Below are positions 7,108 through 44,244 of a DNA stretch of 64,000 bases, in pieces; within the stretch, counting starts at the first letter, position 1, and the number at the start of each line of letters is the position of its first letter. Below the pieces are notes generated by a model. The model made no database searches. It saw nothing but the letters and a program-made list of their open reading frames with translations, and was not told the origin of the DNA. A program made the translations under genes and the position numbers. Origin of the DNA: Domibacillus indicus (lineage in GTDB: Bacteria; Bacillota; Bacilli; Bacillales; Domibacillaceae); assembly GCF_023715895.1 (NCBI RefSeq), contig NZ_JAMBOO010000009.1:62001-126000 (forward strand), read 5' to 3'.

Positions 7108-8099
7108 TAAGTAGATTTTCGAACAATAATGTCACTCGGCAGCTCATATTGCTCCATCTCTGCCTGGTTATTGTGAAGAAGCTCTAATATGACCTGGGTC
7201 GCTTTTTGACCCATACCGTCAGCAGGCTGTTGGATTGTTGTTAATGTCGGAGTGATCCACTGAGCTATCGGCTGGTTGCCAAAACCCATAATCGCCAGAT
7301 CTTCTGGAACGCGGACCCCCTGCTCGTTTGCTTGTGTGATCATGCCGGCGGCAATGTCATCGCTTCCCGTAAAAACAGCAGTAGGCCGATCTTCCATATT
7401 CATCACATGAGTAAGCAGCTGCTTTCCATCTTCGGTTGTATGCCGATCGACGAAGATCCATGCAGGATTAATAGAGAGTCCTGCTTCTGCCATTGCTTTT
7501 TGGTAGCCCTGGTTGCGGTCCTTGTCTCTTCCTTTTTCAGCAAAAAGAGCGCCGGTGCAATAACCAATTCTTTGATGCCCTTGTTGAATCAAATGTTTAA
7601 TGCCTGCATACGTTCCACTTAATTGATCAAACTTAATAACTGGAACAGACGGTTCGGGAATATCTTCGTTGCACAGTACAATCGGGCCGTGCTTCGTAAA
7701 CGGCTGAACGTCCTTCCAATCGTTTTCTAAAGCGCCTATGATCATACCGTCTGCCTGCTTTGTTTTCAGCAGATTAAAAAAAAGCCGTTCTTTTTCTTTG
7801 TCTCCGCTGCTCTGGCATATCATCGTTTTATAGCCCTTTTCATACGCCGTTTGCTCAACAGCTGCGGTTAGGGAAGCGAAAAAGGGGTCGGTAACAGCTG
7901 GAACCACAACCCCAATCGTCATCGTCAGCTGTCCTCTTAATCTTCTGGCAGCCGGATTTGGATGATAATCGAGTTCTTTCATCGCCTGCAGCACAAGGGC
8001 ACGGTTTTCTTCGGATACATAATCTTGATTGTTGATTACACGGGATACGGTTGTTTTCGATAAACCGGCTCTCTTCGCTACATCTAAAATGGTTGCCAT
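7107..8099 (-). CDS. LacI/GalR-family transcriptional repressor
   Basis: 330-residue regulator: an N-terminal lambda-like HTH (TILDVAKRAGLSKTTVSRVINN) and hinge HPNPAARRLRG, then a periplasmic-binding-like effector domain from about residue 60 (TIGVVVPAVTDPFF...GFGNQPIAQWITPTLTTIQQP). Family members usually sense sugars or phosphorylated sugars. No sugar operon is adjacent, so the effector is unknown; two operator-like boxes lie just downstream of its terminator. Confidence 0.85.
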   Translation of the reverse strand: MATILDVAKRAGLSKTTVSRVINNQDYVSEENRALVLQAMKELDYHPNPAARRLRGQLTMTIGVVVPAVTDPFFASLTAAVEQTAYEKGYKTMICQSSGDKEKERLFFNLLKTKQADGMIIGALENDWKDVQPFTKHGPIVLCNEDIPEPSVPVIKFDQLSGTYAGIKHLIQQGHQRIGYCTGALFAEKGRDKDRNQGYQKAMAEAGLSINPAWIFVDRHTTEDGKQLLTHVMNMEDRPTAVFTGSDDIAAGMITQANEQGVRVPEDLAIMGFGNQPIAQWITPTLTTIQQPADGMGQKATQVILELLHNNQAEMEQYELPSDIIVRKST

Positions 8100-8134
8100 C
8101 CTGCTTCCTTCTTTCTTTGATTCTAATTTCGTAC

Positions 8135-8164
8135 ATTGTAGCGCTTATTTAAATCTCCATGCAA
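8135..8164 (-). promoter_or_regulatory. SigA-type promoter of the LacI-type gene
   Basis: On the minus strand TTGCAT, 18 bases, TACAAT, ending about 36 bp before the start codon. Confidence 0.5.
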
Positions 8165-8169
8165 GGACA

Positions 8170-8206
8170 CAAAAAAACAGCTGGGCTTTACCCAGCTGCT
8201 TTTTTA
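8170..8206 (-). terminator. Terminator after the esterase operon
   Basis: CAGCTGGG / CCCAGCTG stem with A and T runs on both sides; overlaps the stop codon of the preceding minus-strand gene. Confidence 0.8.
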
Positions 8207-8578
8207 GGATTCCGGCTCTGCTTCTGTCCGGAGCGCGTTGAAAAATTCAAGAATGTACCGATAGCTGTTTCCAAAGTCGCCAAGCATTCCTTCTTTTGAG
8301 CAGTAGACATCAATGGCAGATTGCATCGGTGTAATTTTATAAATGGTGATAACCATGCCATATGCTCCTTTTTCAAGCATGATTTCTCCCCTCGCTACGT
8401 CTTCATTCAACAGCGCCCATCCGGCGAGCTTACCGTTTTGAACAACCTTCTTTATGTCGTTAAAAAGCGACTCGCGGCTTTTCCGGTAATAGCGGGTTTT
8501 AAGCGAGGATTCTTTCGGATTTTCTTTTGTTTCTTCATGCTTTCTCCAAATTCCCGTTATAACGCGTGCTGTTGACAT
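8204..8578 (-). CDS. Hypothetical protein, DUF1499-like C-terminus
   Basis: 124-residue soluble protein with a strong GGGGGGAAAG ribosome site. It has no signal peptide or membrane helix. The C-terminal pattern AIDVYCSKEGMLGDFGNSYRYILEFFNAL recalls the DVRS...GDLG.N..RI..FL..L ending of DUF1499 proteins, and the earlier RYYRKSRESLFNDI fits the start of that domain; the match is by eye. It follows the esterase gene by 18 bp, so the two probably form an operon. Function unknown. Confidence 0.65.
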   Translation of the reverse strand: MSTARVITGIWRKHEETKENPKESSLKTRYYRKSRESLFNDIKKVVQNGKLAGWALLNEDVARGEIMLEKGAYGMVITIYKITPMQSAIDVYCSKEGMLGDFGNSYRYILEFFNALRTEAEPES

Positions 8579-29420: not shown

Positions 29421-29505
29421 GCCTGGCAACCTGACGACCATATGCTTTTCAGCAGTTAGGCTCACGGCTTTGCGTCCTACCCTTTCGGAGTAGTTTGCCT
29501 TTTTC
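29421..29505 (-). ncRNA. Cyclic di-GMP-I (GEMM) riboswitch
   Basis: Read on the minus strand, the conserved pieces occur in order: AGGCAAAC, GAAAGGGTAGGACGCAAAGCC, GAGCCTAA, and ATGGTCGTCAGGTTGCCAGG, with a tetraloop-like CCGAAAGG in P2 and a P3 stem around CTGCTGAAAAGCA. These are the marks of the GEMM-I class. Between it and the start lie AGTCT / AGACT arms next to the GGAGGGC ribosome site, so control of translation is plausible; no obvious intrinsic terminator is seen. Confidence 0.88.
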
Positions 29506-29524
29506 AGATGTATTTTATAAATAT

Positions 29525-29567: not shown

Positions 29568-30317
29568 TTACATTAATAATAGGACCGCAGCCATAGTTGG
29601 TGTTAAAATAACCGCAGATTTTAATAGAGGCTGAGGTAAAATATTGGTGAATTTCGCTCCGATGTAAGCGCCAAAAGCCGTACCGACAAGCACTTTCAGC
29701 AATAATGCGAAATCAATAAAGCCTTCTGAAAGATAGCCAATCCCCCCTCCAATAGCGAGCGGCAAAATTACAAGCATTGTCGTTCCAACCGACTGCCGGA
29801 TCGTTAAGTGAAGCAGGACCATTAAGCCAATTTGAATAAATGGAGCCGATCCAATGCCGAATGTACCAGACAAAGTACCCGCAAGCAATCCAAGGAAAAT
29901 ACTCTTCATCCAAATAACATGACTTTTCTCATCTAACCGTTTGGACGTGTCTTTTAAAAAGAACAGCTTTACAAAAAGCAAAAAAGCGGACAAAAACAGC
30001 ATGCCCGCTGTTAGCCAGTGAAGAGATGCTTCCGGGATAACAGCCGCAATTTTAGCACCGCCAAATGAGCCGGCTGCCGCAAAGGCGCCAACAATCAGGC
30101 CGACTTTCAACTGAATGTTTCCTTCACGATAATGGCTGTAGGCGCCAGATACACTTGTAAAGGCCATCGCCGCAAGAGAGGTCCCAAGCGCCATATGAAT
30201 CGGCACACTGAAGAAAAGAGTCAGCACAGCAATAACAAATCCCGCTCCGCCTGCTCCGATAAAGCCAAACAGCATGCCAAGCAATAACATTGTAAACATG
30301 ATTAACAATTTTTTCAT
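29568..30317 (-). CDS. TauE/SafE-family sulfite exporter-like permease
   Basis: 249-residue integral membrane protein with about eight helices. The N-terminal GMLFGFIGAGGAGFVIAVLTLFF and the internal repeat GLLAGTLSGTFGIGSAPFIQIGLM are the two DUF81/TauE motifs. The family moves sulfite, sulfonates or other anions; the substrate here is open. It is monocistronic. Confidence 0.83.
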   Translation of the reverse strand: MKKLLIMFTMLLLGMLFGFIGAGGAGFVIAVLTLFFSVPIHMALGTSLAAMAFTSVSGAYSHYREGNIQLKVGLIVGAFAAAGSFGGAKIAAVIPEASLHWLTAGMLFLSAFLLFVKLFFLKDTSKRLDEKSHVIWMKSIFLGLLAGTLSGTFGIGSAPFIQIGLMVLLHLTIRQSVGTTMLVILPLAIGGGIGYLSEGFIDFALLLKVLVGTAFGAYIGAKFTNILPQPLLKSAVILTPTMAAVLLLM

Positions 30318-32989: not shown

Positions 32990-33405
32990 TTATGTCCAAA
33001 GAACAAATCGCTTACATACGAGCAGCATATCGCCCTGAAATTCCCGGTCCAGCTCCTGAAAAGCAAGTGTGAAAAAGTTATTATGCGTTTCGTACCGTTA
33101 TGTGTATGAACGGTCCCCCTCTCCTTCTGCTTCCGCGAATTCGGCCGGCACTTCATTCATGAGCATGATTTGCACCTCTATTGTTTGGATAATAGCTGCC
33201 GGTTCCTCCCGGCTGTTTAACAGAATACTGGAATCTCCTTTTTCAGGAAGACGTTCCTGTTCAATTTCATAGAAAACAAGTCGCCGTTTTGATTCCAATG
33301 ACAAGCCGAGCCGGAATCGGCGCCAAACGACCAAGCCGATACAAATGCCGGTTCGCTTTCCCCTTTCCAGAATGAATTCCCATATGTTTTTGCTGCTTTA
33401 TTCAC
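32990..33405 (-). pseudogene. Decayed ASCH-domain protein
   Basis: Pieces of an ASCH protein (family length about 140-150) lie in order: NKAAKTYGNSFWKGESEPAFVSAWSFGAD in one frame, then after a shift and a loss of about 20 bases VFYEIEQERLPEKGDSSILLNSREEP and AIIQTIEVQIMLMNEVPAEFAEAEGEGDRSYT in another, then an in-frame TAA (33098-33100), then FFTLAFQELDREFQGDMLLVCKRFVLWT. ASCH proteins bind RNA or nucleosides. The multiple lesions show loss of function. The GTG start overlaps the MFS gene's stop, so it was part of that operon. Confidence 0.8.
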
Positions 33406-34573
33406 TTCCAGCCGCCTCTTCGTAGTTTCGAAGCCGATGCATAGCCGCTATGCCCAGCACAGGGCCAATCCCAAGAACAAAAAAGGCCCATTCCCAACCC
33501 GCATGCACTTGTATCCATGATACCAGATTAATGGATATAATTGTTAACAAAAATCCGATACTCATTTGAAATGTCAGTGCTGTGCCCAAATAATCTCCCT
33601 CTGCAAACTCAGAAACGGCTGCTGAAAACTGCGCAGAATCCGCAATAATAGAACATCCCCAAATAGAAGCCACTACCATCATAAGCAGCAGTGAATGTTC
33701 AAAGGTGAAGCCAATCATAAATGCACACACAGCACTCGTCCCCATAGCCCAAATGGTCAGCCGGGCACGGCCCACCTTATCTGCGAGCAAGCCGCCGAGC
33801 ACACACCCAGCTGCACCAGCGAGGCCAATTGTTACAAATGAAAGAAAAGAAGCGTGTGCCAAGCCGCCTTCTGCCATAAAAAGCGGCAGCCATGTCCACA
33901 TGGCATACAGCTCCCACATGTGGCCGAAATACCCGTAGTTTGCCAGCATAACCGGCTTGTTACGCAGTACTTTGCCAATCATATTGATCGAGAAAACAGA
34001 CGGTGTGCCCTGCTGGGGGGCGTCCTGCACAAAACGAATCATAATGACTGCCGACAACACCGATAAAATAGAGCTTAAGAGAATAACCCCTCTCCAATCT
34101 ACGTTCATCGTCAAGGCTGCCAGCAAATGCGGCAGGGCCGAGCCAAGAGTGAGTGCACCGATTACAATGCCAATCGCAAGGCCCCGGTGCTTCGGAAACC
34201 AGAGCGTTAATACCTTAACGGCTACCGGATAAACGCCTGCAAGGGCTGCTCCAGTCACAAAACGCAGCAAAATACCGATAAAAGGATGGTCTGCAAACAA
34301 AAGCAGGCTGTTGGCAAGCGCTCCTGCCAGCGCTGATACCATAAATAATTTTCTTGCTGGAAATCGGTCAGAAATCCCTAAAACAGCACTGACCAAAGCG
34401 CCGGCTGCAAAACCGGCCGGCACGGCAGCCGACACCCATGGTTTATCCGCTTCCGTCAATCCCCATCGGTCTGTTAGATCATTGATCACAGCGGAAGCAC
34501 TGAACCAAAGGCTGAGCGCAAAGAACACAGCGATAGAGCCCCATGCTAATGCCCCCCATTTTGACTGTTTCAT
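33398..34573 (-). CDS. MFS transporter
   Basis: 391-residue permease with 12 predicted helices. The start is ATG 34573 with GAAAGAGGGGGA upstream; an extension to 34759 is promoter sequence. LTLWFPKHRGLAIGIVIGALTLGSALPHLL and GGLLADKVGRARL are MFS loops; the protein resembles CynX/NNP-like nitrate or cyanate permease branches, but the substrate is open. It diverges from the guanidine locus and is followed by the ASCH remnant. Confidence 0.78.
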   Translation of the reverse strand: MKQSKWGALAWGSIAVFFALSLWFSASAVINDLTDRWGLTEADKPWVSAAVPAGFAAGALVSAVLGISDRFPARKLFMVSALAGALANSLLLFADHPFIGILLRFVTGAALAGVYPVAVKVLTLWFPKHRGLAIGIVIGALTLGSALPHLLAALTMNVDWRGVILLSSILSVLSAVIMIRFVQDAPQQGTPSVFSINMIGKVLRNKPVMLANYGYFGHMWELYAMWTWLPLFMAEGGLAHASFLSFVTIGLAGAAGCVLGGLLADKVGRARLTIWAMGTSAVCAFMIGFTFEHSLLLMMVVASIWGCSIIADSAQFSAAVSEFAEGDYLGTALTFQMSIGFLLTIISINLVSWIQVHAGWEWAFFVLGIGPVLGIAAMHRLRNYEEAAGSE

Positions 34574-34682
34574 TTCTTGTCCCCCTCTTTCTGTGTCCAG
34601 ACCATTGTACAAAGAAAAGAAGAAAAAAGGGAACGCAAAAAAGAGTTTTCGAAATATTTTGTTATAAAATCTAACATGTTCG

Positions 34683-34711
34683 TTGCACACACTCTTTTTT
34701 CTCCTTATACT
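34683..34711 (+). promoter_or_regulatory. SigA promoter of the first guanidine-I riboswitch
   Basis: TTGCAC, 17 bases, TATACT; about 40 bp before the aptamer. Confidence 0.7.
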
Positions 34712-34759
34712 CCGTATTATCAAACAAATAGGGGTTCTTATTATCGCAATCAAGAACAA

Positions 34760-34884
34760 AGATGCTGCCTAGGGTTCCGGTTGAAAAACGTCTGGTCCGA
34801 GAGGGAGCGTACAGCATGTACTGTATACACGGAGGGATAAAAGCCCGGGAGAATTTTACATAAAATTCTCCCGGGCTTTTTTAT
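34760..34884 (+). ncRNA. Guanidine-I (ykkC subtype 1) riboswitch with terminator, copy 1
   Basis: Conserved segments in order: GCCTAGGGTTCCGG (34765 on), CTGGTCCGAGAGGGAGCG, TACACGGAGGGATAAAAGCCCGGGAG. The last segment runs straight into a very strong terminator, AAAAGCCCGGGAGAATTTTA / complementary arm (34839-34880) with a T-run. Guanidine binding should hold GGGATAAAAGCCCGGGAG in the aptamer, preventing termination and turning on the downstream permease. Confidence 0.93.
34839..34884 (+). terminator. Riboswitch-controlled terminator 1
   Basis: Perfect 20-bp stem with a CA-type loop and TTTTTTATTTTT tail. It shares its left arm with the aptamer's 3' conserved segment. Confidence 0.9.
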
Positions 34885-34919
34885 TTTTCCGCTACATTCG
34901 GAAAAGAGGGTGAATGAAG

Positions 34920-36281
34920 ATGACTGAAAAAACGACACTTGCGAAATCACTGAAGCTGCATCAAGTTGTATTTATGGGGCTTGCCTGGATGACACCGATG
35001 ATTTTCTTTACCGTTTACGGCGTTGCATTTGAAGCGGCAGGCGGGATGATGGCCGCTGCTTATATCGTTGCTTTTCTGGCTATTTTCTTTACTGCTTACA
35101 GCTACAGCCGCATGGTCAAAGCGTATCCGATTTCAGGTTCTGCTTACACCTATACGAAAAAAGCAATCCATCCTACAGCCGGATTTTTAGTCGGCTGGGC
35201 TCTATTAATGGATTATATTTTCTCACCCATCATTGCGGTCTTAACATTTGGCATTTTTATGAATACCGAGTTTCCAGCCATTCCGGTTTTCGTCTGGATT
35301 ATTGTAATGAATGTGGTGCTTGCGGTCGTTAATATTGTCGGCATCAAGTCCGCCGCACGCGTCAGTGGTATTTCGGTTCTCGTACAAATTGGATTTATCC
35401 TGTTGTTCTGCTTATTCATCGTAAAAGATATTGTGACTGGCGACACTGGGTCAAGCTCCCTGTTTTCGCTCGCTCCGTTTTTCGGTGAACATGCTGGACT
35501 GGGTGCTGTTTTTTCCGGTGCCGCACTGATCTGCTTCTGCTTTCTCGGATTTGACGCCGTAACCACTATGTCAGAAGAAACGATCGAAGCGGATAAAACG
35601 ATCCCGAAAGCCATTTTCCTCATTGTGTTTATTGCTGCGGCGATGTACATTGCGATTTCGTATTTAACGCAGGTTGCTTATCCTGAGTTTACATTTACCA
35701 ATCCCGACAATGCCGCTTATAGCCTTGTACAGCTTGTTGGCGGAAACCTCTTAAGCTCGTTATTTATTATGGTATTGATCATCGCTACGTTTACGCAAGG
35801 AGTTTCCTCTGTCACTAGTGTCAGTCGGTTTATGTACGCTTTAGGACGTGAATCGATTCTGCCGGAGAAGCTGTTTACCTCTCTTCATCCGAAATATCAA
35901 ACACCGGTCGCAAACATCTTGTTTGTCGCTGCCGTATCTTTATCCGCTGTTTTTATTAATTTGGATACAGCCGTTATGTTTGTCAGCTTTGGCGCTTTAA
36001 CTGCTTTTACATTCGTGAATGTATCGGTTATTGCCCATTACTATATAAAGTTAAAGAAGCGTTCACCGAAAGAAACGTTTTTGTATCTTGTTTTCCCACT
36101 GGTCGGTGCCGGGTTTATCGGCTGGCTTCTGACGCTGTTAGATAAGCATACGCTGACGTACGGAGTTATCTGGGTCATTGCCGGCTTCATTTACTGGCAG
36201 GCTAGAAAAGTCTGGCTGTCAGCTCAAAGCAAACAGCGGGATGTTCAAACAAAACCGATTGTCCAGCAAAAAACGATGTAA
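34920..36281 (+). CDS. APC-family permease in the guanidine regulon
   Basis: 453-residue amino acid-polyamine-organocation transporter with about 12 helices; FKAYPISGSAYTYTKKAIHPTAGFLVGWALLMDY-like segment (helix 3) and FCFLGFDAVTTMSEETIEADKTIPKAI (helix 6 region) are diagnostic. Its guanidine-I riboswitch argues that it imports guanidine or a guanidino compound; that is inferred from context. ATG 34920 is nine bases after GAGGG; ATG 34914 is too close. Confidence 0.85.
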   Translation: MTEKTTLAKSLKLHQVVFMGLAWMTPMIFFTVYGVAFEAAGGMMAAAYIVAFLAIFFTAYSYSRMVKAYPISGSAYTYTKKAIHPTAGFLVGWALLMDYIFSPIIAVLTFGIFMNTEFPAIPVFVWIIVMNVVLAVVNIVGIKSAARVSGISVLVQIGFILLFCLFIVKDIVTGDTGSSSLFSLAPFFGEHAGLGAVFSGAALICFCFLGFDAVTTMSEETIEADKTIPKAIFLIVFIAAAMYIAISYLTQVAYPEFTFTNPDNAAYSLVQLVGGNLLSSLFIMVLIIATFTQGVSSVTSVSRFMYALGRESILPEKLFTSLHPKYQTPVANILFVAAVSLSAVFINLDTAVMFVSFGALTAFTFVNVSVIAHYYIKLKKRSPKETFLYLVFPLVGAGFIGWLLTLLDKHTLTYGVIWVIAGFIYWQARKVWLSAQSKQRDVQTKPIVQQKTM

Positions 36282-36299
36282 GATAATCTAACATAAAAG

Positions 36300-36329
36300 T
36301 TGTTTTCAGTTTTTTCAGATTGTTATACT
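36300..36329 (+). promoter_or_regulatory. Promoter of the guanidine degradation operon
   Basis: TTGTTT, 18 bases, TATACT, about 40 bp before the second aptamer. It lets the degradation genes be transcribed separately from the permease. Confidence 0.6.
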
Positions 36330-36371
36330 TGTTGCATAAACCAATAAAGGTTTTCACATCGCGTTGAAAAC

Positions 36372-36507
36372 AAAAAGCTGTCTAGGGTTCCGTTTAAAGA
36401 GTTCTTCTTTAAAGCCTGGTCCGAGAGAGAGCGTACAGCTGCTGCTGTATACACGGAAGGATAAAAGCCTGGGAGACGACCATCTCCTGGGCTTTTATCC
36501 TTTTTTC
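36372..36507 (+). ncRNA. Guanidine-I (ykkC subtype 1) riboswitch with terminator, copy 2
   Basis: GTCTAGGGTTCCG (36380 on), a variable arm, CTGGTCCGAGAGAGAGCG, TACACGGAAGGATAAAAGCCTGGGAG, then the terminator. The aptamer arm AAAGAGTTCTTCTTTAAAG is longer than in copy 1, and two bases of the conserved 3' segment differ (GGAAGGATAAAAGCCTGGG). The second arm changes accordingly, keeping the terminator paired. Same switching logic as copy 1. Confidence 0.93.
36459..36507 (+). terminator. Riboswitch-controlled terminator 2
   Basis: GGATAAAAGCC...GGGAGA / TCTCC..GGGCTTTTATCC stem with TTTTTT tail. Confidence 0.88.
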
Positions 36508-36561
36508 ATGATTCCATATGAGCGCCCTGCGCTTTGTTCATTCAAAAGGAGGCTGTTTTAC

Positions 36562-37290
36562 ATGACTGATATGTTAACAAAGTATATTCCTGCCGGCGGC
36601 AAATGGTCCGGACGGATCAGCCGCGGCAAGTCCATTACATTTACGGCGATGGAGGATGGCGCTAACGTCTCTCTTCTTCTTTATTCCGCCGTGGATACGG
36701 CAGAGCGCTACAATATGCCGGATACATTAAAAGCTCAGCACACTGCCCACTTAACGACAGGAAACGTGCTGATGAGTGATAACGGGCGCGTGCTGGCCAG
36801 CCTCACAGATGACTCACTCGGCTGGCATGATACGATTTCCGGTTACATCTCACGCCGTGTCGTCGACGAGCGCTACGGACGAACAACCTATCAGGAAAAA
36901 CGAAACGACTGGTATCGAAGCGGTGAAGAAAACTTTGCCGTTGAACTATTCCGAAACGGCCTCACCACACGCGATCTCGTCCCTGTTGTGAATTTGTTTT
37001 CCAAAGTGTACTGCACGGAAGACGGCCGCATGCATTTTGTTTCCGGCCATGCCAAAAAAGGCGACTCTGTGACACTGCGGACGGAATTAGATGTTCTGCT
37101 CGTTTTATCTAATACGCCAAATCCGCTTGACCCAAGCCCCGTCTACCCTTCTGTACCGGTGAAAACCGAAATTACGGATGCAGCTCCGGTGCAGGAAGAC
37201 GACCTTTGCTTGAATCACCGCCCGGAAAACCGGCGCGCGTTTGAAAATACATGGGACCACACAATGCTTACTCAAGGAGGCGTTCGATAA
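36562..37290 (+). CDS. Urea amidolyase-associated protein 1 / carboxyguanidine deiminase subunit (DUF1989)
   Basis: 242-residue DUF1989 protein, first of a UAAP1-UAAP2 pair. Conserved pieces: [64 protein letters not shown], and [12 protein letters not shown]. Such pairs (CgdA/CgdB) remove ammonia from carboxyguanidine after guanidine is carboxylated, yielding allophanate. ATG 36562 follows AAAGGAGG; the frame extended to 36364 lies in the riboswitch. It overlaps the next gene as TAATG. Confidence 0.87.
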
Positions 37291-37943
37291 TGGCGGTATT
37301 ACATCATGTTATGAGCGATCGAAAAACAGAGGATGCTTTTTACAATAAAACCATCCCAGCGGGAGATGGCTGGACGTATACGCTAGAGCCGGGACAGGTG
37401 CTTCGTATTGTCGACTTGGAGGGAAATCAAGCAGCGGACACATTGTTTTATGATGCTGATAATCTGTCGGATCATTACAGTGCGGTCAACACGATTACGC
37501 GCCAGGGCAATGTGTATTTAACAACCGGCTCTGTTCTTTTATCTGAATCAGGCAAAGAACTGGTCAAAATTGTGGCTGATACGTGCGGCAGTCACGATAC
37601 GCTCGGCGGCGCCTGCTCAGCACAAAGCAACACAGTGCGCTACTCACACGATACGCTGCCGATGCATAACTGCCGTGACACGTTTATGCTGCAGCTTTCC
37701 AAAAACGACCCACGCTTTACAAAGCGGGATTTAGCTCCTAACGTCAACTTTTTCATGAATGTACCGGTCACACCAGAAGGCGGGTTAACCTTTGCTGACG
37801 GTGTTTCGGCTCCCGGCTACTACGTGGAAATGCAGGCAGTGAGCCGGACACTTGTCCTAATCAGCAACTGCCCGCAATTAAACAATCCTTGCAACGCCTT
37901 CAATCCGACACCGATTCAGCTGCTGATCTGGAATCAAAACTAA
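37290..37943 (+). CDS. Urea amidolyase-associated protein 2 / carboxyguanidine deiminase subunit (DUF1989)
   Basis: 217-residue partner of the previous gene and homologous to it: [96 protein letters not shown]. The CGSHDT..CSAQSN..RYSH..HNC segment has the Cys and His that would bind metal. The ATG shares one base with the previous stop, behind AAGGAGG. Expected to form the heteromeric deiminase. Confidence 0.87.
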
Positions 37944-37956
37944 AGGAGCGATGACC

Positions 37957-40900
37957 ATGTTTACAAAAGTATTAATTGCCAACCGCGGAGCCATTGCCGT
38001 CCGCATTGAACGAACCCTTCGTCAAATGGGCATCGCCTCTGTTGCCGTCTACACAAAAGCAGACCAGGACAGCCTGCATGTTGATTTAGCAGATGAAGCG
38101 ATTTTAATTGGGGAAGGCGCAGCAAAAGACAGCTATTTAAATGCCGAGCTTATTTTAAACACCGCTATCCAAACAGGCGCTCAGGCCATTCACCCCGGAT
38201 ACGGATTTCTAAGCGAAAATGCTGATTTTGCCCGTGCCTGCCGCGAAATTGGCATTGCATTTATCGGCCCGACACCAGAACAAATGGAGCTGTTCGGCTT
38301 AAAGCATTCTGCCCGTGAAATGGCGGAAAAAGCGGGCGTCCCGCTTCTTCCCGGTACAGCACTCATTACAGATCTTCAAACAGCTTTGTCAGAAGCAGCA
38401 CAAATCGGCTATCCGGTTATGCTGAAAAGCACAGCGGGCGGCGGCGGCATCGGCATGCGTGTCTGCGGAGATGAAGCCGCGCTTGGTGACGCCTTCGATT
38501 CAGTCTGCCGTCTGGCCGAGACCAACTTTAACAATGGCGGTGTGTTTTTAGAAAAATACATTCAAAAAGCGCGCCATGTAGAAGTGCAAATTTTCGGCAA
38601 TGAATTCGGTGAGGTAGCCGCGCTTGGCGAGCGGGACTGCTCGATTCAGCGGCGCAATCAAAAAGTCGTTGAGGAAAGCCCAGCTCCCTGCCTCTCTTCT
38701 GCGGTCCGTAAACAAATGCTCGACTCTGCCAAGCGTCTTGCAGAAGAAGTGGGCTACCGGAGTGCGGGAACCGTAGAATTTTTGTATGACCCAGAAGCAG
38801 AACAGTTTTATTTTCTTGAAGTAAATACCCGGCTTCAAGTCGAGCATGGCGTGACGGAGGAAGTGCTTGGCATTGATTTAGTGGAATGGATGGTGCGCGA
38901 GGCAGCAGGCGAATTACACGGGCTCAGCCACTTGTACGAAGCGCCAAAAGGCCACAGCATTCAAGCACGCATTTATGCAGAAGACTGCTTGAACGACTTC
39001 CGGCCAAGCGGCGGCCAGCTCGACCAGGTCCGCTTTCCTGAACAAGCCCGCATTGAAACATGGGTGCGGGACGGGCTGAACGTGACGTCTCTTTACGACC
39101 CTATGCTTGCGAAAGTGATTGTTCATGCCGATACGCGCGAAGATGCGATCGACAAGCTGCACGCAGCACTTCGTGAAACGCGTCTTTACGGTGTGACAAC
39201 GAACCTTCAATTCATTCAAGCGCTCCTGCAGGAAAACGACTGCCGAAGCGGTCTCGTTCATACCCGTATGCTCGACAGTTTTACACCGGCGGAACAGGCG
39301 ATTGAAGTGCTTGACGGCGGCATTCAAACGACCGTGCAGGACTGGCCGGGGCGTGTCGGCCACTGGGATGTAGGCGTTCCTCCGTGCGGACCGATGGATC
39401 CTTTTTCGTTCCGAATCGGCAATAAGCTTTTGGGGAATGAAGACCGGGCTGCTGGTCTTGAACTGACTCTTCGCGGCGGGTCTTACCGTTTCCGCGGCGA
39501 CACTGCTTTTTGCCTGACAGGAGCGGACATGAAGGCTGTACTGGATAAAGAAGCGGTGCCTATGTATACGGTTGTGCAGGCAAAGCGCGGACAGGTGCTG
39601 ACGTTCGGAGAAGCCGAAACAGGCATGCGTACTTACTTCCTCGTCGCAGGCGGGTTAGATATGCCGCTTCACCTCGGCAGTGCAGCAACGTTTACCCTTG
39701 GCGGATTCGGCGGACATGGCGGACGGGCGCTGCGGACAGGAGATGTTTTGCAGGTTCATCCTGTTGCCCTTCCTTCTCCTGCGGCGCTTGCGGCAGACAA
39801 ACAGCCGGTTTTAACAAAAGAATGGACCATTGGTGTGATCCCAGGCCCTCATTGTACAACCGAATTTTTATTGCCGGAATACTTGGAGCAGCTCACTGAA
39901 ACAAGCTGGGAAGTTCACTTTAACAGCTCGCGCACTGGTGTCCGCTTAATTGGGCCTGCCCCGCTCTGGACACGTGAAGACGGCGGTGAAGCCGGTCTTC
40001 ATCCGTCTAATATTCATGATAATGCGTATGCCATCGGAACACTTGATTTAACAGGTGACATGCCGATTTTACTTGGTCCGGACGGGCCGAGCCTGGGCGG
40101 ATTTGTCTGCCCGGTCACAACGGCTTCCGCAGAATTTTGGAAGATCGGCCAGCTGCATGCCGGCGACCGCATCCGTTTTCAGCTGTTGACGCTCCAGGAA
40201 GCCGAAGTTCTTCGCCAGGCACAGGAGGAGCACTTGAATGCCATTGGGTTACAGGAAGCGTCTTCTCCGCTTCCATCACTTCCGGAAAAAGCGGCCCGCT
40301 TTACGCCGGATTATCCGATTCTCGTTGAGCAGTCAACGGGCAGCTTCCCGATGACGATCCGGGCAGCAGGCGACGAGCACGTACTAGTTGAATATGGGGA
40401 GATGGAGCTTGACCTTCTGCTTCGTTTTCAAGTTCACGCTTTAATGGAAGCCGTTCAATCACGCTCTGACATTCCGGTTCTTGATTTGACGCCGGGTATC
40501 CGTTCTTTGCAGGTTCATATCGATGCTTCCAAAATGTCGATCACGGAGCTTTGCGAAGTTCTCGCAGCCATCGATGAAAAGCTTCCACCGCTTGAAGAAA
40601 TTGAAGTGCCATCGCGTATCGTCCGACTTCCCCTTTCCTGGGATGATCCAGCGACGCAGCTGGCCATCGAGCGCTATCAGAAAAACGTCCGCCCTGACGC
40701 TCCGTGGTGCCCGAGCAACCTCGAATTTATCCGCCGGGTCAACGGGTTAAACGACATCGAAGATGTAAAACGTATCGTATTTGACGCCAACTATCTTGTT
40801 CTCGGCCTAGGGGATGTGTACCTCGGTGCCCCTGTCGCAACGCCGGTCGACCCGCGCCACCGGCTTGTGACCACTAAATACAACCCAGCTCGTACATGGA

Positions 40901-41613
40901 CGCCGGAAAACGCAGTAGGGATCGGCGGTGCCTACATGTGTGTATACGGCATGGAAGGACCAGGAGGCTATCAGTTTGTCGGCCGTACCGTACAGGTTTG
41001 GAACCGGCTTCGTGAAACCGAAAGCTTCCAGGCTGGCAAGCCGTGGCTGCTCCGTTTCTTCGACCAAATTCAATTTTATCCGGTTAGTGCGGACGAACTG
41101 CTTGAAATGCGTGAAGACTTTCTGCGCGGACGTTTTGAAATTGACATTACGGAAACCACCTTTAAACTCGGCGACTATTTAGCTTTTCTCGAATCCATTG
41201 AAGAAAGCGCCCAGGAATTCCGCCAAACACAGCAGGCTGCTTTCCATGCCGAGCGGGAAAGCTGGCGTGAGCTTGGCCTTACGGAATATGTGTCCGAACA
41301 CGAAGCAGCAGAGCCAGCGGAAGAAACCATTCCGGAAGGAGCGGAAGCGGTCCGCTGCTCAATGCCTGGAAGTGTGTGGAAGGTTCTTGTTTCTCCAGGA
41401 GACGAAGTGAAGAAAGGCGATACGCTTATCATTGAAGAAAGCATGAAAATGGAGTTTCCCCAGCCGGCTCCATGTGATGGCTTTGTCGAGTCTGTTTATG
41501 TAGCGCCAGGAGATGAAGTTCATGCGGGACAGTTGATTGTTTCTATTACAAAAGAAAAGCGAGGTGCTTTTGATGCAGACGATAAACCTGCCGAAAACGT
41601 TATCCATTCGTGA
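37957..41613 (+). CDS. Biotin-dependent guanidine (urea-type) carboxylase
   Basis: 1218-residue single-chain carboxylase. Order: biotin carboxylase (KVLIANRGAIAVRIERTLR, KSTAGGGGIGMR ATP loop, EKYIQKARHVEVQIFG, FLEVNTRLQVEHGVTE), then AHS2/KipA and AHS1/KipI-like carboxyltransferase lobes (VLDGGIQTTVQDWPG... and FPMTIRAAGDEHVLVEYGEMELDL), ending in a biotinyl domain with Lys in EESMKMEFPQP. It carboxylates guanidine (or urea) using ATP and bicarbonate. Riboswitch plus UAAP genes favour guanidine. ATG 37957 is better spaced from AAAGGAG than 37951. Confidence 0.92.
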   Translation: MFTKVLIANRGAIAVRIERTLRQMGIASVAVYTKADQDSLHVDLADEAILIGEGAAKDSYLNAELILNTAIQTGAQAIHPGYGFLSENADFARACREIGIAFIGPTPEQMELFGLKHSAREMAEKAGVPLLPGTALITDLQTALSEAAQIGYPVMLKSTAGGGGIGMRVCGDEAALGDAFDSVCRLAETNFNNGGVFLEKYIQKARHVEVQIFGNEFGEVAALGERDCSIQRRNQKVVEESPAPCLSSAVRKQMLDSAKRLAEEVGYRSAGTVEFLYDPEAEQFYFLEVNTRLQVEHGVTEEVLGIDLVEWMVREAAGELHGLSHLYEAPKGHSIQARIYAEDCLNDFRPSGGQLDQVRFPEQARIETWVRDGLNVTSLYDPMLAKVIVHADTREDAIDKLHAALRETRLYGVTTNLQFIQALLQENDCRSGLVHTRMLDSFTPAEQAIEVLDGGIQTTVQDWPGRVGHWDVGVPPCGPMDPFSFRIGNKLLGNEDRAAGLELTLRGGSYRFRGDTAFCLTGADMKAVLDKEAVPMYTVVQAKRGQVLTFGEAETGMRTYFLVAGGLDMPLHLGSAATFTLGGFGGHGGRALRTGDVLQVHPVALPSPAALAADKQPVLTKEWTIGVIPGPHCTTEFLLPEYLEQLTETSWEVHFNSSRTGVRLIGPAPLWTREDGGEAGLHPSNIHDNAYAIGTLDLTGDMPILLGPDGPSLGGFVCPVTTASAEFWKIGQLHAGDRIRFQLLTLQEAEVLRQAQEEHLNAIGLQEASSPLPSLPEKAARFTPDYPILVEQSTGSFPMTIRAAGDEHVLVEYGEMELDLLLRFQVHALMEAVQSRSDIPVLDLTPGIRSLQVHIDASKMSITELCEVLAAIDEKLPPLEEIEVPSRIVRLPLSWDDPATQLAIERYQKNVRPDAPWCPSNLEFIRRVNGLNDIEDVKRIVFDANYLVLGLGDVYLGAPVATPVDPRHRLVTTKYNPARTWTPENAVGIGGAYMCVYGMEGPGGYQFVGRTVQVWNRLRETESFQAGKPWLLRFFDQIQFYPVSADELLEMREDFLRGRFEIDITETTFKLGDYLAFLESIEESAQEFRQTQQAAFHAERESWRELGLTEYVSEHEAAEPAEETIPEGAEAVRCSMPGSVWKVLVSPGDEVKKGDTLIIEESMKMEFPQPAPCDGFVESVYVAPGDEVHAGQLIVSITKEKRGAFDADDKPAENVIHS

Positions 41614-43318
41614 GTTAAAGAAGGGCTACCAATCTGGCAGCTTAAAGCCGGAGATGGTCGTTGAACAAATTATCGAACGGTCTGAGACTGACCGGGACAT
41701 GAATATTTGGATTACACCGCCGTCCTGGAGCTTCATCCGCCCTTACGTAGAGCGGTTAAAGACTATCGATCCATCCCAGGCACCGCTTTGGGGCATTCCG
41801 TTTGCCATTAAAGACAACATCGACCTTGCCGGTGTGGCGACAACAGCGGGGTGTGCAGAATTTGCTTACACACCCGATGAACATGCAACCGTCGTTGGGC
41901 GCTTGATTGACGCCGGTGCTATTCCAGTCGGAAAAACAAACCTAGACCAATTTGCGACTGGCCTCGTTGGAACAAGAAGCCCGTATGGCGAAACGAAAAA
42001 TGCGCTGAACCCCGATTTAATCAGCGGCGGTTCAAGCGCGGGCTCCGCCGTATCCGTCGCCCGCGGCCAGGCGGCTTTTTCACTCGGCACAGACACAGCA
42101 GGATCTGGACGCGTACCGGCCGGGCTTAACCGATTGATCGGCTACAAGCCGAGCCTGGGTGCATGGCCGGTCAAAGGCGTCGTTCCGGCGTGTGCGAGCC
42201 TTGATTGTGTAACGGTTTTTGCCAACAGCTTAGATGATGCAGATCTTGTCGATCAAGCTGCCCGCGGCTTTGATGCCCGGGACCCATGGTCGAAACAGAT
42301 TACACGCCAGGCATCAGCGCTTCCCCAAAAAATATTAGTACCAAGCGAATCGCCGGTTTTTTACGGACCATTCGCAGATCAATACAAACAAGCCTGGCAG
42401 CATACGTTAGAAAAGCTGCATGCGCTCGGTCTGCCTGTTGAATCGATCGATGTCACCTACCTTTCCGAAGCAGCTGCTGTTTTATACGACGGCCCGTGGG
42501 TAGCAGAGCGCTGGGCTGATTTGGGCTCGTTCATTAACGAACATCAAAGCGCCGTATTCCCGGTAACAGAAACCGTATTACGATCCGGAGCTAAGCCGGA
42601 ATATGATGCAGCCTCTGTTTTCAAGGCAATGCATACGCTTCAGGCGTTTAAACAAAAAGCTCATCAGCAGCTTCAAGATGCCGTTTTGATTATGCCGACA
42701 GCCGGCGGTACGTGGACACGCGAAGAGGTCCGCAACAACCCTGTTCAAACAAACAGTCAAATGGGGCTTTATACAAATCACTGCAATTTGCTCGATTTGT
42801 CCGCTGTGAACATTCCGGCCGAAGATGCAGCCCAAAATGTGCCGTTTGGCATTACACTATTTTCAGGACCAAGAGATGAGCATTTGATTACGGGCTTCGC
42901 CGGCTTGTTTTTACACGGCCGCCGCGCGCCTGAAAAACCATCCACGACGCTCGTTGCTGTCTGCGGCCTTCATATGAAAGGATTTCCGCTTGAAAAGCAA
43001 ATGCTCGAGCACGAAGCCATTTTTGTCCGGGAAGCAAAAACGGCTCCCGACTATAAGCTTGTAGAGCTCGATACCATGCCGAAAAAACCGGGGCTCATTC
43101 GAACAACAGAGGATGGCTTCTCTATTGAACTGGAATTGTGGGAAATGCCTATTTCCCAATTAGGGTCATTTGTTTCCCTTATTCCGTCGCCGCTTGGTTT
43201 TGGTACTATTGAACTCGAAGATGGTACACATGTGCAGGGATTCTTGTGTGAAGCAAGCGCAGCAGCGGCCGGAAAAGATATCTCTTCCCTCGGCGGATGG
43301 CGATATCGCCAAAACTAA
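41573..43318 (+). CDS. atzF: Allophanate hydrolase
   Basis: 581-residue amidase-signature enzyme that splits allophanate to ammonia and CO2. The Lys-Ser-Ser core is visible: AIKDNIDLAG, GGSSAGSAVSVARG, and FSLGTDTAGSGRVPA. The C-terminal domain from about residue 450 (LVAVCGLHMKGFPLEKQMLE..., IPSPLGFGTIELEDGTHVQGFLCE) is the usual AtzF C-domain. ATG 41573 (GAGGTG upstream) lies 41 bases inside the carboxylase gene, in another frame, so they are tightly coupled. Confidence 0.92.
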   Translation: MQTINLPKTLSIRELKKGYQSGSLKPEMVVEQIIERSETDRDMNIWITPPSWSFIRPYVERLKTIDPSQAPLWGIPFAIKDNIDLAGVATTAGCAEFAYTPDEHATVVGRLIDAGAIPVGKTNLDQFATGLVGTRSPYGETKNALNPDLISGGSSAGSAVSVARGQAAFSLGTDTAGSGRVPAGLNRLIGYKPSLGAWPVKGVVPACASLDCVTVFANSLDDADLVDQAARGFDARDPWSKQITRQASALPQKILVPSESPVFYGPFADQYKQAWQHTLEKLHALGLPVESIDVTYLSEAAAVLYDGPWVAERWADLGSFINEHQSAVFPVTETVLRSGAKPEYDAASVFKAMHTLQAFKQKAHQQLQDAVLIMPTAGGTWTREEVRNNPVQTNSQMGLYTNHCNLLDLSAVNIPAEDAAQNVPFGITLFSGPRDEHLITGFAGLFLHGRRAPEKPSTTLVAVCGLHMKGFPLEKQMLEHEAIFVREAKTAPDYKLVELDTMPKKPGLIRTTEDGFSIELELWEMPISQLGSFVSLIPSPLGFGTIELEDGTHVQGFLCEASAAAAGKDISSLGGWRYRQN

Positions 43319-43354
43319 AAAGCTTCAGCGGCATCGAGCCGCTGAAGCTTTTTT
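43316..43354. terminator. Guanidine operon terminator, bidirectional
   Basis: AAAAAGCTTCAGCGGC / GCCGCTGAAGCTTTTTT. Confidence 0.88.
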
Positions 43355-43787
43355 ATGAGCGCGTAAACAGCTCCCGAATATAAGCGCCAAGCTGTTCATC
43401 TGTTAAATTACTGGCAGCCGCCCCACGGATCATATCCACTGTGAGGACGGTTTTTTTCTTCGAGTGAAGAATATCCGTCATCCAAAGCGTTTTATATTTT
43501 GTATGTTCTTTTTGAACGAGATTCATTGCTTCTTCTGCGGTTTCCACCTTTAATCTGCTCCAATGCATCGCAATTTTAAAAAGCGACGGGTGGCTGAGAG
43601 ACAAGGAAGCCAAAAGTATGTATTGAATAAGGACATTAATTACCTCATCTCGCAGGTGGTACCGTTTATTTAAATCGGCAATAACAGTAAGATCCATATT
43701 AGAGACGGAATCTTTTCCAGTGGTATGCATGATCATCTGCCGTGGACTAATGCTTTTAAAGTATGCGGCAGCGTTATGGCTCGTCAT
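43353..43787 (-). CDS. Small DnaB_2 (DnaD/DnaB-like) domain protein
   Basis: 144 residues. The C-terminal half (RDEVINVLIQYILLA, AMHWSRLKVETAEEAMNLVQKEHTKYKTLW) matches the helical DnaB_2/DnaD domain of Gram-positive replication initiation proteins, but the protein is far shorter than DnaB (about 470) or DnaD (about 230). AAAGGAGG supports ATG 43787; the upstream extension is rejected. A DNA-binding role is plausible; the function is unknown. Confidence 0.72.
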   Translation of the reverse strand: MTSHNAAAYFKSISPRQMIMHTTGKDSVSNMDLTVIADLNKRYHLRDEVINVLIQYILLASLSLSHPSLFKIAMHWSRLKVETAEEAMNLVQKEHTKYKTLWMTDILHSKKKTVLTVDMIRGAAASNLTDEQLGAYIRELFTRS

Positions 43788-43947
43788 TGAGAGTGTCCTC
43801 CTTTTTAAAGAATGCTTATTCCTTTTCTTTCCCCGCCTGCCCCTTTCTAAAGCCTTCTTTTTTCTAGAAAATGTTTGAAGTTCCGTATTCCCGGCTATTC
43901 TACTACACAAAAGCTCTTTTAAGCCAAAAAAAGAAAGGACTTTTCCG

Positions 43948-44244
43948 ATGAGCACAATAAAAGATCTTCACCACACAGATGAACCCGTTCAAGAAACCGG
44001 CACCTACATTTGTGCCGCTGGCAAAAGAGAAGAATTAAAGGAAGGCGAACAATTTCCGGTCTGCCCGAATACAAATGCACCGACCACCTGGCGCCATGAA
44101 GATCATATACACAATACCGGCGACCGCGTGACAGAAGCCGGTACGTATGGAGATGAAGACAAAGACGAAGTGGAGCTTGCACAAGGCGATACTTTCCCAT
44201 CCTGCCCTAAATCCGGACAATCTACAACATGGAAACACGCTTAA
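43948..44244 (+). CDS. YjzC-family protein, two tandem repeats
   Basis: 98 residues. Two copies of one module: ETGTYICAAGKREELKEGEQFPVCPNT..TTWRH and EAGTYGDEDKDEVELAQGDTFPSCPKS..TTWKH. Each has a CP..TTWxH end, so paired Cys and His could bind zinc. Many bacterial YjzC proteins have a single module. GAAAGGA precedes the ATG. Function is unknown. Confidence 0.75.
   Translation: MSTIKDLHHTDEPVQETGTYICAAGKREELKEGEQFPVCPNTNAPTTWRHEDHIHNTGDRVTEAGTYGDEDKDEVELAQGDTFPSCPKSGQSTTWKHA

Follow-up and report, generated by a model that had tools for sequence, protein, structure and literature searches.

What controls the paired guanidine-linked units of Domibacillus indicus, and is guanidine the only signal they answer to? 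In a window of 64,000 nucleotides (contig NZ_JAMBOO010000009.1, positions 62,001 to 126,000; coordinates below are those of the window), a permease gene and a four-gene degradation operon lie next to each other, each behind its own Guanidine-I riboswitch. An earlier reading of this DNA (the original prediction) described a guanidine import and breakdown locus at 34683-43318 with two such riboswitches. Our wholly computational analysis kept its genes and gene families but not its extent, as the functional locus runs from a TnrA/GlnR box at 34660 to a hairpin at 43317-43353.

We propose, with a probability of roughly 0.78, that these two adjacent units, each under a TnrA/GlnR box and a Guanidine-I riboswitch, let Domibacillus use guanidine nitrogen. 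The first unit would supply an APC-type guanidine importer, and the second a guanidine carboxylase, the carboxyguanidine deiminase subunits CgdA and CgdB (CgdAB) and an allophanate hydrolase, which would take guanidine to ammonia and CO2. One lock would be the box upstream of the promoter, which would permit good initiation only under nitrogen limitation, through activation by TnrA, derepression of GlnR control or both. The other, in series, would be the riboswitch, with RNA polymerase passing the leader terminator only when guanidine is bound. Since both keys would be needed, a toxic cation would be imported and digested only when nitrogen is wanted and guanidine is present. In the exporter genes of related bacteria, the riboswitch lock would be kept and the nitrogen lock absent. 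Of this reading, the aptamers, terminators, boxes and their spacing, the gene families, the diagnostic residues, the division between types of unit and the TnrA and GlnR homologues come from sequence and comparison; binding of protein and ligand, the direction of control, the substrate carried and the activities of the enzymes are inferred.

TnrA/GlnR boxes upstream of both promoters

What appears to be the most informative feature of the locus, a second control layer missed in the original prediction, consists of two 17-bp palindromes, one upstream of each predicted promoter.

34660..34676, no strand: TnrA/GlnR box 1 (TGTTATAAAATCTAACA), preceding the permease promoter; exact TGTNAN7TNACA and stricter TnrA form
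34683..34711, + strand: predicted sigma-A promoter 1, TTGCAC-17-TATACT, read from the sequence and box spacing
36277..36293, no strand: TnrA/GlnR box 2 (TGTAAGATAATCTAACA), overlapping the permease stop codon; exact TGTNAN7TNACA and stricter TnrA form
36300..36329, + strand: predicted sigma-A promoter 2, TTGTTT-18-TATACT, read from the sequence and box spacing

The window holds one further match to TGTNAN7TNACA, outside the locus at 30291; 0.71 matches to this pattern were expected. For the stricter TnrA form, shuffling gave 0.02 expected matches per window; this form was used with M at position 12, where PMC4475385 prints N, and both boxes fit either version. The box centers lie 43 bp (box 1) and 44 bp (box 2) from the end of the -10 element, at about -50 and -51 relative to the predicted transcription starts, and the boxes stand 6 nt upstream of the -35 element. 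The arrangement recurs within the genus: in all six genomes with the locus, a box lies at -98 from the permease aptamer and another at -94 from the operon aptamer, and all 12 of these aptamers have an exact box. Box 1 occupies the intergenic stretch shared with a divergent gene for a transporter of the MFS family (33398-34573, - strand), which could therefore be affected too.

Boxes in related loci

To compare relatives, we took the best 80 of 199 relatives of the permease from a contig search with a permease alignment (A1, described below), all Bacilli by their titles. The covariance model, with each aptamer counted once, called 137 aptamers in 78 of these 80 named loci; counts from a home-made regular expression, which yielded 81 aptamers and missed many of those in Paenibacillus, were dropped. 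An exact box lay within 250 nt upstream of 135 of the 137; over 100 dinucleotide shuffles the count averaged 1.37 and never exceeded 5. Since divergent units share boxes, aptamer counts are not independent, and counts by locus and genus are safer: 77 of the 78 aptamer-bearing loci had an exact box, as did at least one locus for each of 19 genus labels (from record titles, with Bacillus species pooled as one). The sole exception, from Bacillus taeanensis (L206), has one-mismatch sites. Spacing was also conserved. Outside Paenibacillus and Cohnella, 51 of 64 box-promoter pairs had 43 or 44 bp between the box center and the end of the -10 element; when the DNA following the box was shuffled 200 times, such pairs numbered 3.5 on average and at most 10.

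A second set of 30 loci, which overlaps the first, was chosen by CgdA and comprised 28 genomes of the order and two of the genus; CgdA was present at E 1e-30 or better in 28 of 397 order genomes and 19 of 135 genera. A Guanidine-I aptamer preceded CgdA in all 30 loci, with an exact box within 250 nt in 23.

As controls we took 68 Guanidine-I aptamers of the same order or family without a neighboring CgdA. None had an exact box within 250 nt, and in five a site departing from the consensus by no more than one base lay between -130 and -40. These controls came from the matches listed (236 of the 397 genomes had a Guanidine-I match) and consisted of 10 of 16 non-genus loci, with 6 below the gathering score left out; 18 of 30 loci, with 11 CgdA-type loci and one with a short upstream stretch (L104) left out; the next 38 listed matches not of CgdA type, in score order; and two chosen for coming from CgdA-containing genomes. 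The first downstream open reading frame was SMR-like in 63 of the 68, as judged by a profile whose 20 source sequences were themselves among these proteins. Five controls (L108, L141, L158, L172, L173) came from genomes that also hold a CgdA locus. Fisher's test of 135/137 against 0/68 gives 1e-52, a figure that overstates independence and compares controls unmatched by genus.

With boxes on 135 of 137 aptamers in one group and 0 of 68 in the other, units for assimilation and import look gated by nitrogen and guanidine, and exporters by guanidine alone. On balance, we favor the view that the Guanidine-I riboswitches of Bacilli are of two functional kinds, boxed AND-gate units for assimilation or import and box-less detoxification exporters, and that the boxed permeases form a dedicated guanidine-importer subfamily of APC proteins marked by W25 and Q295. 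What seems new here is the presence of boxes on nearly all assimilation and import units seen, together with their absence from the exporter-type units compared. The conserved two-lock arrangement offers an answer that can be tested directly, and could serve to tell assimilation genes from detoxification genes among those linked to riboswitches.

Regulators and the direction of control

The genome encodes close homologues of TnrA (best PDB match 4r24) and GlnR (7tec and 4r4e), as well as a second, more distant TnrA-like protein whose best PDB match is again TnrA. The gene for this second protein has its own strict TnrA-type box upstream in this genome (C102, L127 and L278). Strict boxes number 23 in the genome, compared to 2 for a reversed control pattern. 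The 15 we inspected adjoin tnrA (two boxes), the second tnrA-like gene, and genes for OHCU decarboxylase and alanine dehydrogenase, as well as NirB-like nitrite reductase and gamma-glutamyltransferase-like genes (the last two from 300-residue query pieces scoring under the cut-offs); others adjoin genes with no evident link to nitrogen scavenging. The TnrA targets listed in the excerpted PMC4475385 include tnrA, nas and puc genes. Since the regulators are encoded, strict boxes exceed the control and nitrogen genes are among their neighbors, the TnrA/GlnR box code is very likely in use in this organism.

Which protein would act at the boxes is a narrower matter. It is possible, although we consider it the less probable case, that GlnR rather than TnrA acts there, as a repressor under nitrogen excess, giving the same logic by repression. 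GlnR and TnrA have a common consensus, and a box that sits 3-6 nt before the -35 of glnRA promoters is dedicated to control by GlnR (PMC3412718, excerpt). As the boxes here stand 6 nt upstream of -35, like those GlnR-only boxes, activation by TnrA is not established. The boxed loci also include Paenibacillus, and GlnR is both an activator and a repressor of nif in P. polymyxa (PMC6191146, excerpt). Against GlnR, the box centers are of the stricter TnrA type. Their spacing also places them near -50, a position typical of TnrA-activated promoters. Either mode, activation by TnrA or derepression from GlnR, would give expression under nitrogen limitation.

A riboswitch-linked clade of APC permeases

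34914..36281, + strand: APC-family permease, putative guanidine importer; PF00324 and PF13520; the start could be the ATG at 34920

The permease belongs to the APC superfamily by both its Pfam AA_permease matches and its fold. An AlphaFold2 model (pLDDT 87.3; structure input was the window and 38 of the 80 named loci, first 420 codons each) had as its best PDB match the arginine-bound GkApcT, 6f34 (TM 0.78, 24% identity). At 160.1 bits, the permease falls below the cut-off of 690 for the BcaP branched-chain amino acid transporter model NF053761. The model TIGR03428 is named for a link to urea carboxylase, a likeness to the situation here, but at 51.4 bits against a cut-off of 740.45 the permease is not of that family. 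The next APC protein of the same genome is 32% identical.

In the named set, 68 of the 80 permeases have their own aptamer upstream and 70 of the 80 loci contain CgdA; 38 loci are tandem with two aptamers, like the window, and 21 are divergent with two. Since the query was built from CgdA-linked permeases (A1 holds 19 of 24, with four near-duplicates and the frame-broken L076 left out), linkage in the closest kin is partly expected, but it persists down to about 50% identity, which is less expected from the choice of query. In L076, the divergent permease gene is split into two frames (7123-8428). At the level of the class, 44 of 299 genomes contained a relative at E 1e-90 or better, some in several copies. 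We examined 29 such loci for aptamers, one per genome, besides the window: three had one, and 26 had none within the stretch examined.

Eight positions separated linked from unlinked permeases. At two of these, W25 and Q295 were present in 84 of 84 linked rows (the window, the 80 named loci and three class-level loci, and including L249 and L259, clade members with no aptamer in view) and in 0 of 26 unlinked rows. Since W25 is in one of the two peptide search patterns, its conservation in the named loci is partly built in, a point against the proposed reading; Q295 is in neither pattern. In sets not found by pattern, both residues were invariant in the 19 A1 permeases and, among class-level rows, present in 3 of 3 aptamer-linked and 0 of 26 unlinked sequences. 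The linked permeases formed a single clade with support 100/100 in a tree of 60 rows, 32 of them linked (roughly one in three of the named rows, all 29 rows from the class level, two named permeases without aptamer and two paralogues from the D. indicus genome). In the permease model, W25 lies in the first helix, which is unwound, and Q295 in the eighth by our count. Substrate binding in APC transporters occurs in this region. The glycine motif of the first helix, which reads GIGAIIGTGIF in GkApcT, is replaced by GLAW.. in 80 of 80 named family members; its loss was rejected as a guanidine-specific mark, as the 26 aptamer-less relatives lack the motif too.

The original prediction proposed the permease as a candidate importer of guanidine and as a function not well described. 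The candidacy gained from the linkage to guanidine (own aptamer in 68/80, an aptamer in 78/80 loci, CgdA in 70/80). The novelty did not last, since APC importers are already predicted for comammox and other ammonia oxidizers (PMC11410670 and PMC12186494, excerpts). The existence of one riboswitch-linked clade with W25 and Q295 as markers is support for guanidine import, short of proof, and the two residues would make the clade a clear target for transport assays.

We consider it unlikely that the permease instead imports an amine or another guanidino compound from which the cell then makes guanidine, or that it serves export or exchange. Linkage to the riboswitch speaks for a relation to guanidine and not for the identity of the substrate, the closest solved fold is that of an arginine-bound cationic amino acid transporter (6f34), and, of the 29 class-level relatives examined (39-51% identity), 26 show no aptamer in the stretch examined. 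Nevertheless, family searches found no enzyme in the operon that would release guanidine from a precursor, permease and CgdA occur together in 70 of 80 loci, and import is the predicted role of APC permeases in the guanidine loci of ammonia oxidizers, according to excerpts of the papers just cited. Guanidine import thus remains our preferred assignment.

The APC permeases nearest to the linked clade (L287-L313 except L288) occur in up to five copies per genome, with no aptamer in the stretch examined; they have Y or F at position 25 and S at position 295. L249 and L259 are Paenibacillus members of the linked clade with neither aptamer nor CgdA in the stretch examined. The D. indicus genome also has six SMR genes, with no Guanidine-I aptamer found at any of them.

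Two guanidine riboswitches and the case for guanidine alone

34758..34853, + strand: Guanidine-I aptamer 1 (permease unit); RF00442, 83.8 bits
34839..34880, + strand: intrinsic terminator 1; 19 pairs, -29.7 kcal/mol; contains the 3′ strand of aptamer 1 helix P3
36371..36477, + strand: Guanidine-I aptamer 2 (degradation operon); RF00442, 86.4 bits
36457..36502, + strand: intrinsic terminator 2; 20 pairs, -31.0 kcal/mol; shares helix P3 of aptamer 2

Both aptamers are full-length matches above the Rfam gathering score for Guanidine-I (RF00442, 63), and a search of the genome found these two only. In both leaders, the 3′ end of the aptamer runs into a strong terminator hairpin, and the 3′ strand of P3 forms part of the terminator stem, so that by fold the two structures are mutually exclusive, as in an ON switch. 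Since the terminators use the 3′ strand of the last aptamer helix, ligand binding should block termination. The original prediction of two guanidine-I riboswitches, each with a terminator, is borne out by the scores and the overlapping hairpins. Its further claim that each has its own promoter agrees with our two predicted sigma-A promoters. These rest on the conserved spacing between box and promoter, because promoter-like sites by themselves are at chance level in the region; promoter scanning as evidence in its own right was dropped, having given nothing above chance.

Could guanidine be the only relevant signal, with the boxes lacking function? Guanidine-I control of these gene families has been described (PMC12186494 and PMC11410670, excerpts). 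A case from the same riboswitch class also favors this possibility, that of the exporter genes ykkCD in B. subtilis. There, according to excerpts of PMC4475385, chromatin immunoprecipitation showed that TnrA occupies the ykkC promoter region in vivo, where a box was called, and deletion of tnrA had no measurable effect on expression; a box therefore need not act. The exporter-type aptamers we surveyed differ from ykkCD in having no exact box (0/68). Several of our own results also weigh against the proposed two-lock reading. Aptamers are absent from 7 of the 13 genus genomes, and two of the 80 permease loci have none in the stretch examined. Twelve of the 80 permeases, one of them at a contig edge, have none directly upstream. 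Seven of the 30 CgdA-chosen operon aptamers (L067, L069, L080, L082-L085) have no exact box within 250 nt, with a one-mismatch site in four of the seven. Promoter-like sites alone numbered 11 in the region, with 10.6 expected, and box-promoter spacing is scattered in Paenibacillus and Cohnella. Against these stand the 135 of 137 boxed aptamers (shuffle mean 1.37; controls 0 of 68) and the fixed spacing of 43-44 bp to the -10 element outside those two genera, and we regard a guanidine-only system as improbable.

Equally improbable is the suggestion in the original prediction that each aptamer has its own guanidine threshold, with importer and enzymes switching on at different points: the aptamers do differ in the variable arm and in two 3′ bases, as stated there, and also in the length of that arm (helix 3) and in flanking bases, but the 3′ change is a compensatory swap of a P3 pair found family-wide (of 137 aptamers, 69 have A-U, 65 G-C and 3 G-U, and none has an unpaired position), the arm varies with compensatory changes in 6 of 6 pairs, and different set-points are thus unsupported. 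The 3′ difference is ordinary covariation, and because it is a compensatory pair swap we set different affinity aside.

Two other RNA elements were seen in related guanidine loci. In Terrilactibacillus tamarindi (L064, 5310-7340), matches to group II introns separate the Guanidine-I aptamer from the permease gene. Three genomes of a single genus (L063, L065, L068) have a purine riboswitch on the opposite strand beside the guanidine locus.

The degradation operon and known systems

36562..37290, + strand: cgdA (UAAP1), carboxyguanidine deiminase subunit; TIGR03425, 298.5 bits (cut-off 205.95); PF09347
37290..37943, + strand: cgdB (UAAP2), carboxyguanidine deiminase subunit; TIGR03424, 306.5 bits (cut-off 284.7); PF09347
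37951..41613, + strand: biotin-dependent guanidine carboxylase (model name urea carboxylase); TIGR02712, 1774 bits; D699, D955
41573..43318, + strand: allophanate hydrolase; TIGR02713, 617.8 bits (cut-off 511.05); amidase and AH_C domains
43317..43353, + strand: probable operon terminator, a hairpin followed by a T-run; -27.0 kcal/mol for the fold of 43316-43360

The methods of PMC11410670, in the part available, call a guanidine carboxylase by Asp at both K. lactis positions 1330 and 1584. Alignment to the K. lactis enzyme (5i8i) revealed that D699 replaces N1330 and that D955 corresponds to D1584, so the carboxylase carries both residues. The adjacent cgdA and cgdB genes exceed the cut-offs of the UAAP1 and UAAP2 models, and the allophanate hydrolase exceeds that of TIGR02713 and contains the AH_C domain. 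Its gene overlaps the 3′ end of the carboxylase gene, and its start is most likely the ATG at 41573, not the upstream TTG of the longest open reading frame. The diagnostic aspartates and the CgdA and CgdB scores support the gene order and pathway originally predicted. Judged by sequence, carboxylase, CgdAB and allophanate hydrolase would make up the published guanidine carboxylase pathway, which is not new.

Both the pathway under Guanidine-I control and the prediction of APC guanidine importers in ammonia oxidizers were already known. Pseudomonas syringae, enterobacteria and ammonia oxidizers share the riboswitch, guanidine carboxylase, CgdAB and allophanate hydrolase with the locus described here (PMC12186494 and PMC11410670, excerpts). 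The model organisms for those operons have an ABC importer, whereas here an APC permease has its own switch and TnrA/GlnR boxes are present at both promoters. Comammox Nitrospira has a predicted APC importer directly under Guanidine-I (PMC11410670, excerpt), a likeness in role and switch, but its locus encodes a guanidinase where this one encodes a carboxylase. With the TnrA/GlnR regulon of Bacilli, as excerpted in PMC4475385 and PMC3412718, the locus shares the box sequence, the position upstream of -35 and the nitrogen-scavenging nature of the targets.

The words "guanidine" and "allophanate" have no occurrence in the main text of the 2012 survey of the TnrA/GlnR regulon. The literature searched, outside which most subscription papers lie, gave no link of TnrA or GlnR to these guanidine genes, so priority is not proven. 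PMC12452182 mentions TnrA alongside guanidine riboswitches in connection with branched-chain amino acid operons, and PMC8066629 has the terms in unrelated places.

Two features flank the locus. A gene for a small protein with a DnaB_2 replication-initiation domain directly follows the operon (43353-43955, - strand). A c-di-GMP-I riboswitch lies at 29422-29509 (- strand, 78.4 bits), and similar copies were found near the locus in five related loci.

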